Under the pieces are notes generated by a model. That model had not been told where the DNA came from, did not search any database, and saw only the letters and a program-made list of their open reading frames with translations. Position numbers and translations under genes: made by a program. Of a stretch of DNA of 64,000 nt, positions 40,555 through 48,222 are shown one piece after another. This stretch comes from Granulicella sp. dw_53 (GTDB lineage Bacteria > Acidobacteriota > Terriglobia > Terriglobales > Acidobacteriaceae). Where the stretch lies: the NCBI RefSeq assembly GCF_018449545.1, contig NZ_JAAVUR010000011.1, positions 1 to 64,000 on the forward strand, read 5' to 3'. Each line of letters starts with the position of its first letter. Position 1 is the stretch's first letter.

Positions 40555-42429
40555 CTACGGACGAATTGTTGTGTCGAGTCTTACTTCGTTTATGCCACGC
40601 ACAGAGTTACAGATCAGGAGGGCGTCTGCAGTGTGGAGGTCCTCTAGCGTGAGGGTGCGCTCTTCGGCGTTGGGGTTGGTCTCGAGCAGGTAACGGCGGT
40701 AGATGCCGGGGAGAACTCCTGCGCTTATTGGTGGGGTGAGGAGGCGGTCTCCTCTGCGCAGGAAGAGGTTGCTGATGGCGCCTTCGGTGAGCTCTCCGCG
40801 TTCATTGATAAAGAGGGCTTCGTCGAAGCCATCGGCGACCGCCCGGGCGTACTGCTGGTCGTAGAGCGTGCGGCGGGTGGTCTTGTGGCGAAGAAAGCGG
40901 TCGGTGGAGTCGGTGTGCTGGGTGGCCAGCCGGACGCGGCCAGTTGGCGGTCTTGGGGTGAAGGGTGTCGCGGTGATGGTGGCGGCACCAGTCGAATCCA
41001 GGAGCAGGCGGATGCGGTGTGGGGTGGATGCGTTCAGCGTATGGATGTACTCGATAAGCTCCGCGCCGATGACTTCGCGTTGGCAGGGGAAGCTGAAATA
41101 GGCGGCAGAGGCTTCTAGACGGTCCAGATGGAGTGGCAGAAGGTAGAGGCCGTCGTCCTGCAGGATCGCAGGATTCCAGAGGATCGTCTCAATGAGTTGA
41201 AAGTCGTTGGGAGCGCGGGTCAGGAAGGCCGTCTTGAGCAGGCACTCGCGGTACTCGTCTGCTGGCTCCGAGTCGGCGACGATTCCGCCGCCTACGCCCA
41301 TGTGGGCTTTGCCATCCTTTAGGACGAGCGTACGGATAGCTACGTTGAAGGTGGCGTCGCGATTGGGCGCGATATGGCCGATGGCCCCGGTATAGATGCC
41401 GCGTGGCGCGGACTCCAGCTCGTGGATGATCTGCATGGTGCGAATCTTGGGCGCGCCGGTGATGGAGCCGCCGGGAAAGAGCGCGCGGAAGATCTCGTAG
41501 AAGGACAGGCCAGGACGCAGGTCGCCGGAGACCGTGGAGGTCATCTGGAGCAGCGTCTCGTAGCGCTCGATGGTAAACAGATCGTCAACGCGGACATTGG
41601 TGCAGACGCGGCCAAGATCGTTGCGCAGCAGATCCACGATCATGACGTGTTCGCTGCGGTTCTTCTCATCGTTCTGGAGGGCGAGAGCAGCGCGTGCGTC
41701 GTCTTCGAGGTCGAGGCCGCGCGGCATGGTGCCCTTCATGGGACGCGTAAGAATCTTGTCGGCCTCGATCTTGAAGAAGAGCTCCGGCGAGAGGGAGAGG
41801 ATATGGTGACTGCCGAGGTTGAGGAAGGCTCCGTAGCTTACGGGCTGCTGACGAGAGAGGACCGCGAAGGCATCGGCGGGCGAGAGACCGGTCTCTACGA
41901 TGAGCCTGTCGGTAAAGTTGACCTGGTAGGTATCGCCGGCTGCGATGAGCTCTTTGATCCTCAGGATCTGCTGGTGGTAGTGATCCTCGGAGATCTGCAG
42001 GTGAATCTCCGACGCGAAGGGCCGGGCCGGAGATTCAGCAAGAGTCTGCGGCGTCGGTGGTGGCGAAGTGAATCTCCCGGTGATGTGGTCGAAGGCGATC
42101 GGTGCTGCGTAGATACCGAACCAGGCCAAGGGAAGGTCGGCAGGGGGAGCGCTCTCAATCTTCGTGGAGGTAGAGGGCTCGAAGTGATAGCCGCACTCGT
42201 AGCCGAGGTAGCCGGCAGCGTGGTGGCCTTGAGCCAGCGCGGACTCGATACGACCGAAGAGCGCAGGCAGGTCTTCAAGGGTCTGAACGGTGAGAATCTC
42301 GATGGGATCGAGGAAGAGATAGCTGGTGTGGTTGGCGGGATCGGGGCGCGCAGTGTGGAGGAGGAGGGAGCCGGGGTTTTCAGCGACGAGGGCAAAGATC
42401 GATTGCGGAAGCGGATACCACGGGGCCAC
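40555..42429 (-). CDS. pabBC: Aminodeoxychorismate synthase component I fused to aminodeoxychorismate lyase
   Basis: 624 residues. The N-terminal two thirds is chorismate-binding (PabB): DTYQVNFTDRL, SLSPELFF, TRPMKGTMPRG, SEHVMIVDLLRNDLGRV, FPGGSITGAPKIR and the final VGGGIVADS. The C-terminal third is a fold-type IV PLP enzyme (PabC): HKTTRRTLYD with the PLP-binding Lys near residue 515, INERGELTEGAISNLFL and GVLPGIYRRYLL. It makes p-aminobenzoate for folate from chorismate, with an amidotransferase (PabA) elsewhere. It starts 20 bases after the sulfite exporter gene and may be read from the cys operon. Confidence 0.93.
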   Translation of the reverse strand: MAPWYPLPQSIFALVAENPGSLLLHTARPDPANHTSYLFLDPIEILTVQTLEDLPALFGRIESALAQGHHAAGYLGYECGYHFEPSTSTKIESAPPADLPLAWFGIYAAPIAFDHITGRFTSPPPTPQTLAESPARPFASEIHLQISEDHYHQQILRIKELIAAGDTYQVNFTDRLIVETGLSPADAFAVLSRQQPVSYGAFLNLGSHHILSLSPELFFKIEADKILTRPMKGTMPRGLDLEDDARAALALQNDEKNRSEHVMIVDLLRNDLGRVCTNVRVDDLFTIERYETLLQMTSTVSGDLRPGLSFYEIFRALFPGGSITGAPKIRTMQIIHELESAPRGIYTGAIGHIAPNRDATFNVAIRTLVLKDGKAHMGVGGGIVADSEPADEYRECLLKTAFLTRAPNDFQLIETILWNPAILQDDGLYLLPLHLDRLEASAAYFSFPCQREVIGAELIEYIHTLNASTPHRIRLLLDSTGAATITATPFTPRPPTGRVRLATQHTDSTDRFLRHKTTRRTLYDQQYARAVADGFDEALFINERGELTEGAISNLFLRRGDRLLTPPISAGVLPGIYRRYLLETNPNAEERTLTLEDLHTADALLICNSVRGINEVRLDTTIRP

Positions 42430-42449: not shown

Positions 42450-43202
42450 CTACTTCGTGGCTGCCTGGTAGCAGAACTGCAGCCCGATGAAGAGCAGCCA
42501 GAGAGAGAGCGCAAAGCGCAGGTTGCGATTAGGAATCTTGGGGGCGGCGCCGCTGCCGATCAGGCCACCGACGACTCCTCCTGCAGCCAGTTTAGCAAGC
42601 AGGATCGCGTCGTAGTGTCCGCCGATCAGATGAACGCCAGTTCCAACAACGGCGATGACCAACCCGAAAGCCAGATCCGTCCCAACCACCTGAGTGGCGG
42701 TAAGGGATGTAAGCCCCAGCAGGGCCACCGTTCCAAGCGCACCAGCGCCCGCCGAGGAGAAGCCGATCTCCGCCCCGATAGGAAACGTGATGGCGGCGAG
42801 CCACTTGGAGCGCTCCGCCCCGGCGCGAACGATGTTCGCTGGGCGGAAGTGGCGGTAGAGATGCCACGCCGCGGTGAAGAAGATGATGAGTCCGAGCGCC
42901 AGGGTCAGCGCTGTCTTCGGTCCATGTGCGGCGACGTGTTTGAAAAAGACCGAGCCCGAGATGACACCCGGAACTCCTCCCAGCAGCATGATGCCGAGGA
43001 TCCGATAGTTGATCTGACGGCGCACGACCTGGAAGGGGACGACGATGAGCTTCACAATGGCCGAGTAGGCCAGGGTGGTGCTGACGGCGATATCCACCGG
43101 CACCTTGAGGAAGAGGATGAGCAACGGCGCGGTGACGACGCTGGCCCCGACACCCGTAAGGGCGATGACGATGGCTACGACGAAACCGATAAGAAATTCC
43201 AT
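42450..43202 (-). CDS. TSUP-family (TauE/SafE) sulfite/organosulfur exporter
   Basis: 250 residues with about eight hydrophobic spans and the two half-repeats of the family: FLIGFVVAIVIALTGVGASV near the start and FPIGAEIGFSSAGAGALGTV in the second half. TSUP proteins move sulfite, sulfolactate or related anions across the inner membrane. Position at the end of cysDNH suggests sulfite or sulfate handling, which is inference. The gap to cysH is 135 bases. Confidence 0.87.
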   Translation of the reverse strand: MEFLIGFVVAIVIALTGVGASVVTAPLLILFLKVPVDIAVSTTLAYSAIVKLIVVPFQVVRRQINYRILGIMLLGGVPGVISGSVFFKHVAAHGPKTALTLALGLIIFFTAAWHLYRHFRPANIVRAGAERSKWLAAITFPIGAEIGFSSAGAGALGTVALLGLTSLTATQVVGTDLAFGLVIAVVGTGVHLIGGHYDAILLAKLAAGGVVGGLIGSGAAPKIPNRNLRFALSLWLLFIGLQFCYQAATK

Positions 43203-43337: not shown

Positions 43338-44072
43338 CTAGGCGGCCTGGATGTGGATGCCACACTCCTGCTTCTGTCCGCCCCAGCGCCCGGAGCGCGG
43401 ATCGTTCGGGTCGAGGGGAAGGCTGGTGCACGGCTCGCAGCCGATGCTGGAGTAGCCCTTGTCATAGAGCGAGAGCAGCGGAATGTCGTGCTGGCGGGCG
43501 TAGGTCCAGACGTCCTTGGTGGTCCAGTCGGCCAGCGGACTGACCTTGCGGATGCGCGTGCCAGTCGGCAGAGCGAAGGCTTCCGTAAGCTGCATCGCAG
43601 CGCGGCTCTTGGCCTGTTCGCGGCGCATGCCGGTGAACCAGAGCTTGTAGTTCTCGAGCGCGCTGAAGAGCGGCTTGACCTTGCGGATACCGCAGCAACG
43701 GCCCGGATCCGTCTGGTTGAGGATGCCGAACTGCGACTCCTGCTCCGCAACAGTGATCTCGGGCAGCAGGTTGATCAGGTTGAGGGACCAGTCGCGGGCC
43801 ATGCGGTCGCGGTACTCGTAGACCTCGGAGAAGTGGTATCCGGTGTCGAGGAAGATGACAGGGACGTTGGGTAGGGTCTGGCGGACGATGTGGAGGACGA
43901 TGATGTCCTCGGACTGGAAGCTGCTGGTGACGGTGACGTCGGTCGATTGTGCAGCGAGCTCCTGGGCGATGAGGGCGCGGGCGTCGCGAATCTTGTCTTC
44001 AGTAGATGCGGCGGGGAGGACTATGGCCGGGGGCGGTGCAGCGTCGGGTTCGGGAGTGATGGTGTGACTCAT
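43338..44072 (-). CDS. cysH: Assimilatory adenylylsulfate (APS) reductase, CysH family
   Basis: 244 residues. Reduces APS to sulfite with thioredoxin-type donors in the cytoplasm. It has SSFQSED, the iron-sulfur Cys set Cys126-Cys127 (RCCGIRK) and Cys212/Cys215 (GCEPCTS), and the catalytic ECGIH (Cys237). The 4Fe-4S Cys set marks an APS-type rather than a PAPS-type enzyme, which fits the lack of an APS kinase gene. Its start overlaps the cysN stop (ATGA). Confidence 0.93.
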   Translation of the reverse strand: MSHTITPEPDAAPPPAIVLPAASTEDKIRDARALIAQELAAQSTDVTVTSSFQSEDIIVLHIVRQTLPNVPVIFLDTGYHFSEVYEYRDRMARDWSLNLINLLPEITVAEQESQFGILNQTDPGRCCGIRKVKPLFSALENYKLWFTGMRREQAKSRAAMQLTEAFALPTGTRIRKVSPLADWTTKDVWTYARQHDIPLLSLYDKGYSSIGCEPCTSLPLDPNDPRSGRWGGQKQECGIHIQAA

Positions 44073-45715
44073 GGCTGATTCTCTTGATGCGCGGGAAGCA
44101 CTTCGGTTGCGCGAAGGTGACTTAGGAAGCCTTCCACTGCGTTTGGTTCGGCGCTGTCAAGCGTATGAAGTTCAAGGCCGGCGAACTGCTCCACAGGAGT
44201 CTCTTCGAGGATGACCAGCAAACCAATGCTGAGCAGCGAACGCAGGATCGACTCCGACTGAACGCGTGTCTTGACCACAGGATGACTCTGGCTAAGCAGC
44301 GCGGACTCGACAGCAGCAGCCTGCTCCGGGTTAGGAACGACGAGCAGCGCCGGCTTGTGAGTCGGAGTGACAGAAGCGGCTGCGAGCGGACGGCGGATCA
44401 TGCCAGCAGCAGCAGTATGGTTCGTCTGCGCGTCGATGAGGATGAAGCTGCCCGTAGCGCGGTTCTCGGCGTAGGGATCGAAGAACAGAGCGCGGGTGGA
44501 CTCGATCTCGACGACGCCGATATCGTTCATCCCGAGGGAGTTCACAGCTTCTTCCTGCAGCGTCTGAATGTTGGTGCGATGGATCACGCGAGTGACACGC
44601 GCACTGACAGTCTGGGTGCCGTGCTTCAGCAGATAGGGGCGATGCGTCTCAAGACGATCTCCGTCAAACCACACCAGCGAAGCCTCAATAGCAGTAGAGT
44701 GCTGCGGCGGAGCGGAGGCGATGGAGATAACATCGCCACGGCTGATATCCAACTCGTCCTCAAGCGTAAGAGCGATGGAGAGCGGCGCACTGGCCTGCTC
44801 AAGGTCGCCATCGAACGTAGTGATAGAAGCGACGCGGCTGGTGCGGCCCGAGGGCAGAGCGACGATGGTGTCCCCACGACGTACAGTTCCGGCTGCTATC
44901 TGGCCCGCGAAGCCACGATAGAACTGATCCGGACGAATCACGCGCTGCACAGGCAGGCGGAAGGGAGCAGTCGCCTCTTCGGTCCAGACCGGAACCTCTT
45001 CCAGATGCTCAAGCAGCGTAGGGCCGGTGTACCACGGCATGCGAACGCTGGACTCGACGACGTTATCTCCGTCAAGCGCGCTGACAGGGATCGTAACAAG
45101 GTTGGCATTACCAAGCTGGCCGACGAGATCGCGAAGATCGGAGGCGATGGTGTTGTACACATCCTCGGAGAAGTCGACGAGGTCCATCTTGTTGATGGCC
45201 GCGACCAGGTGCCGAATGCCAAGCAGCGAAGCAATATAAGCATGGCGACGCGACTGCGTAAGGATGCCTTTGCGGGCATCGATCAGGATAATGGCGAGGT
45301 CCGCAGTAGAAGCCCCAGTAGCCATGTTGCGCGTGTACTGCTCGTGGCCTGGAGTGTCGGCGATGATGAACTTGCGCCGCTGCGTAGAGAAGAAGCGATA
45401 AGCCACATCGATGGTGATGCCCTGCTCGCGTTCAGCGCGAAGACCGTCAGTAAGCTGGGCGAAGTCGATGGCGGGCTGCTTCTGGCCCGGAGCGATGGTG
45501 GTGCCGGTAACGGCCCGGACCTGATCCTCGTACACATTGCGCGAGTCGTAGAGCAGACGCCCGATGAGCGTGGACTTGCCGTCATCCACGCTGCCAGCGG
45601 TGGAGAAGCGAAGTAAGTCCTTCTGCTGCTCGACGGCCAGAAACTCATCGATCAAAAAATCTGCATCTTCTTCAAGCACAAGAGAGGTAGGCGGGATAGG
45701 AGCCAAGGTCGACAT
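44069..45715 (-). CDS. cysN: Sulfate adenylyltransferase large subunit (GTPase) CysN
   Basis: 548 residues. An elongation-factor-like GTPase: GSVDDGKST (residues 41-49), DTPGHEQYTRNMATGAS, NKMDLVDF. It couples GTP hydrolysis to ATP sulfurylase with CysD. After the usual end of the beta-barrel domains (VEIESTRALFFDPYAENRATGSFILID) there is an extra segment of about 120 residues with no P-loop and no APS-kinase motif. In CysNC proteins this place holds an APS kinase; here it may be a decayed or unrelated domain. The start abuts the cysD stop. Confidence 0.93.
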   Translation of the reverse strand: MSTLAPIPPTSLVLEEDADFLIDEFLAVEQQKDLLRFSTAGSVDDGKSTLIGRLLYDSRNVYEDQVRAVTGTTIAPGQKQPAIDFAQLTDGLRAEREQGITIDVAYRFFSTQRRKFIIADTPGHEQYTRNMATGASTADLAIILIDARKGILTQSRRHAYIASLLGIRHLVAAINKMDLVDFSEDVYNTIASDLRDLVGQLGNANLVTIPVSALDGDNVVESSVRMPWYTGPTLLEHLEEVPVWTEEATAPFRLPVQRVIRPDQFYRGFAGQIAAGTVRRGDTIVALPSGRTSRVASITTFDGDLEQASAPLSIALTLEDELDISRGDVISIASAPPQHSTAIEASLVWFDGDRLETHRPYLLKHGTQTVSARVTRVIHRTNIQTLQEEAVNSLGMNDIGVVEIESTRALFFDPYAENRATGSFILIDAQTNHTAAAGMIRRPLAAASVTPTHKPALLVVPNPEQAAAVESALLSQSHPVVKTRVQSESILRSLLSIGLLVILEETPVEQFAGLELHTLDSAEPNAVEGFLSHLRATEVLPAHQENQP

Positions 45716-46654
45716 TTAGAAGTAGCCCTCGCGTTTCTTGATTTCCATGGAGCCGTCCTGATCGTGGTCGATGACGCGGTTCGCGCGCTCGGAGGAGCGG
45801 AAGCTGACCAGCTCCGCGATGATCTTGGGGATGGTGTCGGCATCGGAGCGAATCGCTCCGGTGCAGGGGCTGCAGCCCAGGGAACGGAGGCGGGAGCGGA
45901 CCCACTGCTCTTCGCCCGGCAGTGATTTGACGAAAGACTGTTCGACGGGGATGAGAGAGTCGGCGCGAACGATCATGCGCCGCTCCTTCGCGAAGTAGAG
46001 CGGGACGATCGGAATGTCTTCGAGCAGGATGTAGTGCCAGATATCCAGCTCAGTCCAGTTGGAGAGTGGGAAGACCCGGATGCTCTCGCCGGGGGCGATG
46101 CGGGAGTTGTAGAGATTCCAAAGCTCAGGGCGCTGATTCTTCGGGTCCCACTGGCCAGCCTTGTCGCGGAAGGAGAAGATACGCTCCTTGGCGCGAGACT
46201 TCTCTTCGTCCCGTCGCGCTCCGCCGAAGGCGGCGTCAAAACCATGCTCGCGCAGTCCATCGAGGAGGGCTGTCGTCTTTAGCAGACCGCAGCAGCGCTG
46301 TGTGCCGAGTGTGACCGGATTGGCTCCATCGGCGAGCGCCTGCTCGTTGCGCCACACCCGCAGATCGAGGCCGAGCTCCTTGGCAAGGTTATCGCGGAAG
46401 GTGATCATCTCCTTGAACTTATAGCCGGTATCGACGTGCAGCAGCGGGAAGGGAATAGGCCCAGGGAAGAAGGCCTTCTGGGCGAGGCGCAACATGACGG
46501 ACGAGTCCTTGCCGATGGAGTAGAGCATCACCGGCTTCTGAAACTCGGAGGCGACCTCACGAAAGATCTGAATGCTCTCGGCCTCGAGCTGTTGAAGATG
46601 GCTCAAGCGGGGGCTGGAAATGGCGTCGAGTTCGGGCATTGCGAGGGTTGTCAT
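45716..46654 (-). CDS. cysD: Sulfate adenylyltransferase small subunit CysD
   Basis: 312 residues. PP-loop ATP sulfurylase subunit: [14 protein letters not shown] (residues 45-58), [34 protein letters not shown] and the C-terminal [20 protein letters not shown] typical of CysD. It forms APS from sulfate and ATP with CysN. It is the first structural gene of the operon; its 200-base leader contains a terminator and a Cys-codon-rich frame, which points to control by attenuation. Confidence 0.95.
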
Positions 46655-46681
46655 GGTTTTGATAGGTCCCGGTGTTTCTCC

Positions 46682-46717
46682 AAAAAAAATCCCACGATCC
46701 AGAGTCTGGAGGTGGGT
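46682..46717 (-). terminator. Leader terminator of the cysDNH attenuator
   Basis: On the minus strand CCCAC (46712-46716) pairs with GTGGG (46691-46695), and inside it TCCAG pairs with CTGGA (46698-46710) with a 3-base loop. A then U8 follow (46682-46689). It lies only 27 bases before the cysD start codon, in the leader rather than after a gene. Its 5' arm is the same segment that GTGGGTG of the leader frame (46778-46784) can capture through CACCCAC (46712-46718), so the two structures exclude each other. Confidence 0.8.
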
Positions 46718-46774
46718 GGCTTGTCTCTTGAGTTAGGGAAGATAGAGGAAATTTGCTATCTAGTGACTCAGAAC

Positions 46775-46861
46775 TTACACCCACGTCTGGACGCAACAGC
46801 AACACGCCATACAACAGGCGTTGCAGCAGGTGCGACAGGCGGTCTGGGTAAAGCTGATCAC
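46775..46861 (-). CDS. Cys-rich leader peptide of the sulfate assimilation operon
   Basis: A 28-residue frame from GTG 46861 to TAA 46775-46777. Nine residues are Cys (positions 9, 12, 13, 16, 17, 20-23), ending MACCCCVQTWV; an internal ATG at 46810 would give just the last 11 residues, with four Cys in a row. The frame is closed by TAA just upstream (46868-46870). No clear ribosome site is seen for either start, so initiation could be leaderless or weak. The Trp-Val codons supply GTGGGTG, the antiterminator arm. A ribosome waiting at Cys codons would leave that arm free, and one reaching the stop would cover it. The role is inferred from this arrangement. Confidence 0.75.
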   Translation of the reverse strand: MISFTQTACRTCCNACCMACCCCVQTWV

Positions 46862-46917
46862 TGTATTTTAAGGGTGAGCCGTTGGGACGGATTTGTCAAT
46901 GTCCCTGGGGTGGGGCC

Positions 46918-48222
46918 TCAGCGTGGCCGAAACACCAACATCTCCACCACCCCCTGGGAAGGAAGGATGACGATGCCGAGTTGATCGCTGAGGCGCTCGA
47001 GAAAGCCGCCCTTAGCGTCTGATGGCGTTTGCAGCTGAAATTGAAACTTGCCGTGCAAATTCGTCTCATTGACGACCGGACGGTCTACGACGCCCTCCAG
47101 CGTGTGGCAGAACTTATCGACGGTTCCGTCCATGTCTATATTCTTCAGCGTATTGATGCTGACTGGTCTGAGGGTTGCGAATGTCTCGTCGGGGGAGCCC
47201 TCCATCTCGAAAAATACGCTGGAAGCTCCAGAAGATCCCATACCCGAGTGAAGGGAAGGGCTCACTGCCGGGAGCTTCGGATGGGGCGCGGTCACGACAT
47301 ACACGTCGACGGAGCGGGTCTCGCGCGAAGCAGTGAGATGAAAGTAATCCAGGAGCCCTTGCTGGAACCGGCGATTCATCTGCTCCCGGTCCTCACTCTC
47401 CGGCAGCACCAGCGCTACATCGAAGCGTTTGTCCAGGTCCAGGGCGGGCGGAAGATCCATACGGATCGAATTGACGTTGAAGATCTCCGTGATGAGTTCC
47501 TTCAACGTATAGCCCTGCAGGCTGCGGTAGTCATTGCTGCTGGAGTTGGCACGCGACTCGCTTTGCGAGGGCGCGACGTGCAAAGTATAGGAGGGTGGAA
47601 ACGACGGCCTGTGGTCATTCGGGCGCGGCATTCTGGGCGATTCGGCATCCAGGACCACTTGGCGGTTTTCAAGAAACGCCTTTAGAGTCGCCTTGTCCGG
47701 ATGAACGGTGGTGATCCTGCCTTCCAGAGCCGCGTGCACTAGGCCTTCGTCCGGTAATGGCGATTGATAGAAGCCAAGAATCCTGCGATCCGAGCCGATG
47801 AGGACGGTCGTTGGTTGTTCCAGTCCGTAAGACCTTCCCGTACGTCCGTCAGGGTCGTAAAAGACCCAACCCTTAATCCGATGTTGGGCAACCCAGGGCA
47901 GGAGTGTGGACTCCTTCTCCCCTGTGATCCACACGAACTGAACAGGACTGCCGGCGAACTGTTCGACCAGCTTGTTCCAAAGCGTGACCGGCTCGAGGTT
48001 TTGCGAGGTGTTAGGAAGGAAGGCGAGGACAGTCAATTGGCCGGAAAGATCGGAGTCACTCCATGAAGCCGAGCCGGGGGCGTTCAGCATATTCGTAAAG
48101 GTGATATTTGGAGCGGCATCGCCAGCTTTCGGGTAGGTTGTGATTGACCCATAGAAACCAATCTGTCCGACAGCGCCGGGAACGGCAAAAGTGAGAAGAG
48201 TCAGCAGGGATCGGACGCTCAT
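46918..48222 (-). CDS. TIGR03435-family protein with thioredoxin-like N-terminus
   Basis: 434 residues with a signal peptide (cleavage near residue 19). The N-terminal half resembles a TlpA/AhpC-type thioredoxin fold (GDAAPNITFTNML, LTVLAFLPNTSQN, YGLEQPTTVLIGSDRRI) but has no CxxC. The C-terminal half has the features of the TIGR03435 family, found mainly in Acidobacteria: YRSLQGYTLKELITEIFNV, ALDLDKRFDVALVLPE, VDKFCHTLEGVVDRPVVNET and LHGKFQFQLQTP. The function is unknown, probably envelope. It lies upstream of the cys leader on the same strand; the gap holds the cys promoter. Confidence 0.7.
   Translation of the reverse strand: MSVRSLLTLLTFAVPGAVGQIGFYGSITTYPKAGDAAPNITFTNMLNAPGSASWSDSDLSGQLTVLAFLPNTSQNLEPVTLWNKLVEQFAGSPVQFVWITGEKESTLLPWVAQHRIKGWVFYDPDGRTGRSYGLEQPTTVLIGSDRRILGFYQSPLPDEGLVHAALEGRITTVHPDKATLKAFLENRQVVLDAESPRMPRPNDHRPSFPPSYTLHVAPSQSESRANSSSNDYRSLQGYTLKELITEIFNVNSIRMDLPPALDLDKRFDVALVLPESEDREQMNRRFQQGLLDYFHLTASRETRSVDVYVVTAPHPKLPAVSPSLHSGMGSSGASSVFFEMEGSPDETFATLRPVSINTLKNIDMDGTVDKFCHTLEGVVDRPVVNETNLHGKFQFQLQTPSDAKGGFLERLSDQLGIVILPSQGVVEMLVFRPR

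Follow-up and report, generated by a model that had tools for sequence, protein, structure and literature searches.

The question raised by this locus is whether the sulfate assimilation operon cysDNH of Granulicella sp. dw_53 is preceded by an attenuator that responds to cysteine. The window, that is, the whole 64-kb stretch of DNA that was analysed, holds the operon on the minus strand, and an earlier note on this DNA had proposed that a short Cys-rich frame and a terminator lie ahead of cysD and form a ribosome-mediated switch. The frame, the hairpin, their complementarity, the recurrence of these features in other genomes, the position of the promoter, and the change in predicted pairing of the terminator arm with ribosome position were computed. 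From the sequence evidence described below, we consider it highly probable that the cysDNH leader is a cysteine-responsive, ribosome-mediated transcription attenuator.

The features of the leader, the regulated genes and their neighbours are collected in Table 1. The gene for a TauE/SafE-type exporter that follows cysH is possibly part of the operon, judging by its strand and spacing. CysD is 84-88% identical to the protein of a number of other genera and 72-80% identical to that of eight of the ten other matched genomes of the same genus. This identity pattern hints that the cysDNH operon may have been transferred or replaced.

Table 1. Features of the cysD leader and of the genes around it (positions in the window)
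Feature	Position	Strand	Basis
DUF3738/AhpC-TSA gene, upstream of the leader	46918-48222	-	same strand as cysD
-35 hexamer TTGACA, 17 nt ahead of the -10	46894..46899	-	sequence reading; TTGAC is the best -35 in 46/67 leaders
Probable -10 hexamer CACCCT (weak), 9 nt ahead of the GTG	46871..46876	-	aligns with GATTCT/CAATCT/GATCCT of relatives
Alternative -10 TAAAAT, without a well-spaced -35	46865-46870	-	sequence reading
Leader peptide frame, GTG start, 28 codons, nine Cys codons, TAA stop	46775..46861	-	re-read from the sequence
Run of four Cys codons TGTTGCTGTTGC, proposed stall site	46793..46804	-	frame reading
Antiterminator 5' strand GTGGGTG, final codons of the leader frame	46778..46784	-	81-nt fold, sequence reading
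Linker with inner hairpin AGATAG...CTATCT, predicted to bring the antiterminator strands together	46719..46774	-	81-nt fold, z -3.3
Antiterminator 3' strand CACCCAC; bases 46712-46716 double as the base of the terminator 5' arm	46712..46718	-	folds, sequence reading
Terminator hairpin CCCACCTCCAGACTCTGGATCGTGGG, -12.4 kcal/mol	46691..46716	-	fold prediction
T8 run of the terminator	46682..46689	-	sequence reading
cysD, sulfate adenylyltransferase small subunit, first regulated gene	45716..46654	-	PF01507 (PAPS_reduct, CysD-type)
cysN, sulfate adenylyltransferase GTPase subunit	44069..45715	-	Pfam, CysN-type GTPase
cysH, APS/PAPS reductase	43338..44072	-	PF01507 (PAPS_reduct, CysH-type)
TauE/SafE-type exporter	42450..43202	-	PF01925; 135 bases after cysH
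Chorismate-binding/aminotransferase gene	40555-42429	-	begins 20 bases after the TauE/SafE-type exporter gene

The leader frame (46861-46775, minus strand) translates as MISFTQTACRTCCNACCMACCCCVQTWV, followed by a stop, and its Cys codons are five TGT and four TGC. The frame opens 207 bases upstream of cysD and its stop lies 120 bases from the gene. The earlier note's description of a 28-codon frame with nine Cys codons was accurate, as were all of its coordinates when they were re-read. The note also placed four Cys codons in a row at the end of the frame; the four are consecutive (codons 20-23), but "at its end" is loose because five codons, VQTWV, separate the run from the stop. The frame is enriched in the amino acid that the operon makes, with nine Cys in 28 codons. 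How rare such a frame is was determined in the window plus selected stretches of its genome totalling 400 kb (464 kb, both strands, or 928 kb of strand sequence). Closed frames with at least five Cys in 16 codons near the stop numbered 42, those with at least seven numbered five, and the sole frame with at least nine was the cysD leader frame, and of the 42 it alone has a terminator of -12 kcal/mol or better behind it. Runs of four TGY codons were dropped as a genome-wide marker of such leaders, being too common in this genome (89 matches vs 56 for the reversed pattern). When ten leader peptides were compared with NCBIfam, no family was matched.

The terminator hairpin with a T8 run, described previously as lying 27 bases ahead of the cysD ATG (46654), was borne out by re-reading and by the predicted fold. 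An intrinsic terminator is predicted between the leader stop and the first gene, and its helix covaries in 14 related leaders. GTGGGTG (46784-46778) and CACCCAC (46718-46712) are exactly complementary, as had been claimed, and the pairing of TCCAGA in the leader frame with TCTGGA in the terminator 3' arm exists by reading only. Folding of the 81-nt stretch that starts at the frame end and includes the 5' arm gives -21.3 kcal/mol (z -3.3), a value equalled by none of 200 shuffles; the terminator stretch 46675-46730 by itself has a z of -1.2. A 7-nt complement arose by chance in 39 of 2000 shuffles, and the shift in arm pairing discussed below has, at this locus alone, a p of 0.066 in a run of 24 loci and of 0.13 in a run of 73 loci. 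The pairing of the frame end with the arm is thus only moderately unusual taken by itself; the case rests on the Cys content of the frame and on the comparative evidence.

For 67 of the 73 loci, candidate start codons were scored for a preceding promoter of the form TTGACA-N16..18-TATAAT. TTGAC stands at -35 in 46 of these leaders, the spacer is 17 nt in 56, and the distance from the -10 end to the start codon is 6-11 nt in 41 of the 46 leaders with TTGAC. The mean score was 8.96 compared with 6.78 in shuffles treated alike. The cysD leader here scores 8.5, which one of 30 shuffles reached, and the scores of L133, L134, L139, L252, L275, L277 and L279 are no better than those of their shuffles. 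Transcription generally starts about 7 nt after the -10 element, which would put the 5' end of the leader RNA no more than a few bases from the start codon. The leader frames here and in relatives are probably leaderless, and leaderless genes were predicted in three of three acidobacterial genomes according to the available part of PMC3160421.

In the proposed mechanism, transcription would start within a few bases of the GTG, and a ribosome would enter the Cys-rich frame right at the 5' end of the RNA or very close to it. When Cys-tRNA is plentiful, the ribosome would reach the stop and cover GTGGGTG, which would leave CACCCAC free for the terminator hairpin, and RNA polymerase would halt at the T8 run before cysD. 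When Cys-tRNA is scarce, the ribosome would wait at the Cys codons and GTGGGTG would pair with the emerging CACCCAC; the terminator would then not be formed in time and cysDNH would be transcribed. For the cysDNH leader we infer that the frame is translated, that the ribosome stalls in it, that transcription terminates and that the switch responds to cysteine.

The switch was evaluated by the extent to which upstream RNA pairs with the 5' arm of the terminator when RNA polymerase has just made the arm. The ribosome was placed at the Cys codons (first, middle and last) or at the stop in 73 loci, and the linker was shuffled as a control. The mean predicted arm pairing was 0.57 with the ribosome at the Cys codons and 0.22 with the ribosome at the stop, and was higher at the Cys codons in 69 of the 73 loci, with L234, L056, L101 and L256 going the wrong way. 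The shift was 0.35 vs 0.13 with a shuffled linker (Wilcoxon p 3e-11, a significance that kinship among the loci inflates), and single loci were seldom significant. A run made earlier on 24 loci using all Cys codons gave 0.63 at Cys and 0.22 at the stop. At this locus the arm pairing falls from 0.72 to 0.27 across the nine Cys positions and is 0.25 at the stop; a stall at the first of the final four Cys codons protects (0.68) and a stall at the last hardly does so. An exclusive antiterminator that is hidden with the ribosome at the stop and free upon stalling is thus predicted for the loci as a group only. Equilibrium folding was replaced by this calculation as a switching test, as just four of 27 loci switch in it, the cysD leader here among them, and in most loci the terminator remains dominant despite a stalled ribosome. 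Because the terminator dominates at equilibrium in most loci, the attenuator model depends on the RNA folding as it is transcribed. The energy of the duplex formed by frame end and arm was also set aside; it gave a Fisher p of 1e-6 over 27 loci, yet most single loci were not significant.

The comparative evidence comes from several collections. A search for CysD gave matches in 63 of 150 genomes of the family (66 places, all read) and in 38 of 199 genomes of the phylum, at 41 places (10 already read, 21 newly read, 10 unread). A collection of named genomes gave 80 cysD loci that were kept, of which 35 were counted, 34 of them under acidobacterial titles and one, L027, under the title Victivallales. 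Loci were then classified by an automatic rule, at least four Cys in 16 codons and a terminator of -9 kcal/mol or better 5-115 nt past the frame stop. Both frame and terminator were present in 30 of the 87 sampled cysD loci and in eight of the 35 named-record loci, whereas one of 172 shuffled regions, with one shuffle per region, passed the rule; 57 of the 87 sampled loci lacked the frame or the terminator under this rule. When the terminator condition was dropped, 60 of the 87 cysD loci, 11 of the 35 named-record loci and 39 of the 50 loci ahead of the sulfite reductase gene sir had the frame. Among 40 cysD loci of other phyla, a similar rule found frame and terminator in none and the Cys frame alone in six. 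At least four Cys without a terminator is a weak criterion because six of these 40 loci satisfy a similar one. The opposite strand was rejected as a null, since six of its 10 matches in 172 regions (four of the 10 with at least five Cys) probably represent genuine leaders of a divergent gene. The duplicate rows L001, L025 and L029 (= L085, L130 and L136) were removed, and L005 and L036 were left out for too little upstream DNA. Some genomes are possibly counted twice (L033/L202 and L023/L196 are alike, and L186/L187 have identical upstream DNA), and the 73-locus set keeps at least two automatic picks with implausible hairpins, L103 and L140.

Many of the closer relatives have a short frame rich in Cys ahead of cysD, and its peptide varies while the Cys codons stay, as in MASTLCTFACRIECRCC... 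of Acidobacterium sp. S8 (L001/L085) and MVPTLCPCACCCC... of L017. An alignment of eleven close leaders has TTGACA in 10 of 11 and shares a start codon, CR and CC codons and the following hairpin. The nearest relatives, both of the same genus, are G286 (CysD 92% identical) and G254 (90%). By reading, the region upstream of cysD in these two keeps the promoter spacing, a frame rich in Cys that has GTGGGTG close to its end, and a hairpin of the form CCCAC...GTGGG. G286 has a GTG start at the same place as the frame here, and in G254 the T-run past the hairpin is degraded and was not called a terminator by the scan. Beyond this pair, the Cys codons, the following hairpin and the complementarity recur despite the fast change of the peptide. 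Over the 73 loci, 427 Cys codons fall in the leader frame vs 113 and 76 in the other two frames. The leader Cys codons are not mere TGY repeats, since 159 of the 427 stand without a Cys neighbour. In L265-L278 the leader tails share a recurrent peptide end like (S/T)GAGRLL, with exceptions, and its codons are the antiterminator strand; RNA pairing apparently shapes this peptide motif.

Compensatory changes, which had been named as a check on the model, are present in the terminator stem, where six pairs changed on both sides in an alignment of 14 sir and cysD leaders, a number reached in none of 500 shuffles. The antiterminator helix is paired in 81% of cells in the same alignment vs 35-49% when slid, and two of its well-populated pairs have both sides changed (C-G/U-A and U-A/A-U). 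Its covariation is weak: 16 of 500 shuffles attain the score, and 323 of 500 attain the count of pairs changed on both sides. In a second alignment of 11 rows, with L266, L022 and L030 left out, 86% of cells are paired, the score is reached by 30 of 500 shuffles and the pair number by 302 of 500; the slid controls of both alignments lie at 34-49%.

Not every leader has a terminator. Between leader and cysD none was detected in nine loci with a nearly fixed peptide of the CCRLSNIFDGC type (L003, L006, L007, L009, L107, L113, L115, L116 and L117). In these, five pairs between GGGTG in the frame and CACCC are identical in 9/9, AGGT ahead of the cysD start is able to pair with GCCT next to the Cys codons (each pair possible in eight or more of the nine), several pairings compete, and the pairs of the consensus fold are conserved with almost no covariation. 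A terminator before cysD was likewise not detected in L185-L188, loci of the same genus with Cys leaders of the MRISCQLRCCC type, and in the folds of L185, L186 and L188 a GGAG lies inside an ACTCC...GGAGT hairpin just ahead of the cysD start. The leaders of the CCRLSNIFDGC type and those of L185, L186 and L188 look like translational versions, as far as pairings with almost no covariation behind them can suggest. Because some relatives, even within the genus, have no detected terminator, the output of the leader need not always be termination.

The leaders are found ahead of other genes as well. The same genome has a second leader (L168/L230, G000:C5, about 184.4-184.6 kb), MVASRMQYLANCCICCHDAARHCLCRPSMTI, ahead of a 577-aa NIR_SIR sulfite/nitrite reductase. 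Its promoter is TTGACG-N17-TAACCT, its hairpin GCCCACGAAAAACGTGGGC is followed by TTTGTTAT, and the arm-pairing shift of L230 is no better than that of shuffles (p 0.20). A search for sir gave matches in 74 of 120 genomes of the family at 78 places, of which 50 were read and 28 are unread, and 35 of the 50 had frame and terminator by the automatic rule. In one set of 20 sir places, 19 come from genomes that gave no CysD match in the family search, and many of these have a strong leader, e.g., MSGSQNFRQMCRCTCCCCCCCC... (G059). One sir match, in G044 (G044:C11:250890-252572), has one in-frame TGA. A Cys frame near CysK in the genome studied here (L175) was set aside as a chance occurrence without a good terminator. 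At L085/L001, L092, L093, L087, L089 and L091, a divergent gene that lies upstream of cysD on the other strand comes with a Cys frame and a terminator of its own. It was typed in L001 alone, where it encodes a CarboxypepD_reg domain and an outer-membrane beta-barrel domain; at the six loci the gene is probably an outer-membrane receptor, and it may import a sulfur source. The sequences thus point to a small regulon of cysDNH, sir and, in six loci, probably an outer-membrane receptor. The proposal that Acidobacteria use attenuation for sulfate assimilation holds up, with a wider scope that also covers sulfite reductase. We give an even chance to a broader model in which Acidobacteriota have a cysteine regulon run by RNA leaders. 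In this model cysDNH, sir and the outer-membrane beta-barrel receptor would each have a fast-evolving, leaderless, Cys-rich frame, and the output module would be interchangeable (a terminator or a hidden cysD start region), so that transcriptional and translational control would be switched even within one genus.

Several other explanations of the locus were weighed. A real Cys-sensing leader could act mainly on the translation of cysD or via Rho, as proposed for Actinobacteria. The available parts of PMC9031893 and PMC13236596 present the polycysteine leaderless ORFs of mycobacteria as attenuators of translation, and in the available part of PMC1262725 the cys leaders of actinobacteria are without terminators. 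The Acidobacteriaceae leaders without a detected terminator, including L185-L188 and the CCRLSNIFDGC type, speak for the same explanation, as does the GGAG within the hairpin before the cysD start of L185, L186 and L188. However, this leader has a hairpin and T8 run 27 bases before cysD, and related leaders show covariation in the terminator helix; we regard control mainly through translation or Rho as unlikely here.

It is far less probable, and in our view scarcely credible, that the hairpin is the ordinary terminator of the upstream DUF3738/AhpC-TSA gene and that the TGY-rich frame arose by chance. The gene is on the same strand and four-TGY runs are common in this genome (89 vs 56 reversed), but the hairpin lies about 200 bases past the stop of that gene and behind a TTGACA-N17 promoter. 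In addition, the two nearest relatives have both the hairpin and the Cys frame, and Cys-rich frames with terminators recur before cysD and sir, with the Cys codons concentrated in the leader frame, whereas the combination is rare or absent in the rest of the scanned genome sequence, in shuffled regions and in cysD loci of other phyla. A structured leader with a terminator ahead of metabolic genes would also suit a riboswitch for a metabolite or a metal, the small frame then being incidental. No Rfam family, whether riboswitch or T-box, was matched at the gathering threshold in the 64-kb window, the two matches in the leader region are at chance level (E 2.7 and 5), and the aligned relatives diverge in sequence while their Cys codons persist; a riboswitch is accordingly given a very slight probability. 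The reading as a ribosome-mediated attenuator is supported by the Cys frame, the recurrence of the terminator and the predicted shift in arm pairing of the group.

No description of cysteine attenuation in Acidobacteria was found in the literature searched, a search that left subscription journals largely outside. The kind of attenuator is already known, none was found described for Acidobacteriota, and the regulon is wider than first claimed. In a survey of premature terminators, almost no predicted attenuators in phyla such as Acidobacteria have associated functions, according to the available part of PMC2965389. A sizeable group of acidobacterial attenuators would gain a specific function, the sensing of Cys-tRNA for the control of sulfate and sulfite reduction. 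Cysteine attenuation would be extended past the cases in Actinobacteria and Rhodobacterales and tied to classical terminators and probable leaderless translation. The leaders also provide a natural series in which the peptide is rewritten and the RNA pairing is kept, and they could act as readable sensors of cysteine starvation in an abundant group of soil bacteria.

The trp, his and leu operons have the classical leader-peptide transcription attenuators. The leader here resembles them in having a frame rich in the regulated amino acid, an exclusive antiterminator and terminator, and a biosynthetic operon downstream; unlike them, it would sense cysteine and appears to be leaderless. In the cys/cbs leaders of actinobacteria (PMC1262725, 2005), short frames ahead of cys operons likewise have Cys codons in runs close to the stop; in the available part of that paper no conserved terminators were found and the authors suggested Rho. 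The uORFC-8-2 motif, which precedes cysS in Rhodobacterales and usually has its tandem Cys at codons 14-15, is also a predicted Cys-codon leader with an intrinsic terminator (available part of PMC8632094). That motif has two tandem Cys codons and precedes a cysteinyl-tRNA synthetase gene in Alphaproteobacteria, whereas the leader here differs in gene, layout and phylum. The polycysteine leaderless short ORFs of mycobacteria (Canestrari et al. 2020, as recounted in the available parts of PMC9031893 and PMC13236596; precursor PMC4633059) also place a frame with a Cys run at the 5' end of the RNA, ahead of sulfur and cysteine genes. As recounted there, they act on translation and belong to Actinobacteria, whereas the leader described here has a predicted intrinsic terminator, belongs to Acidobacteriota and precedes other genes. 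Because of its predicted T8 terminator it is not classed with the mycobacterial translational type, and it may work much like one.
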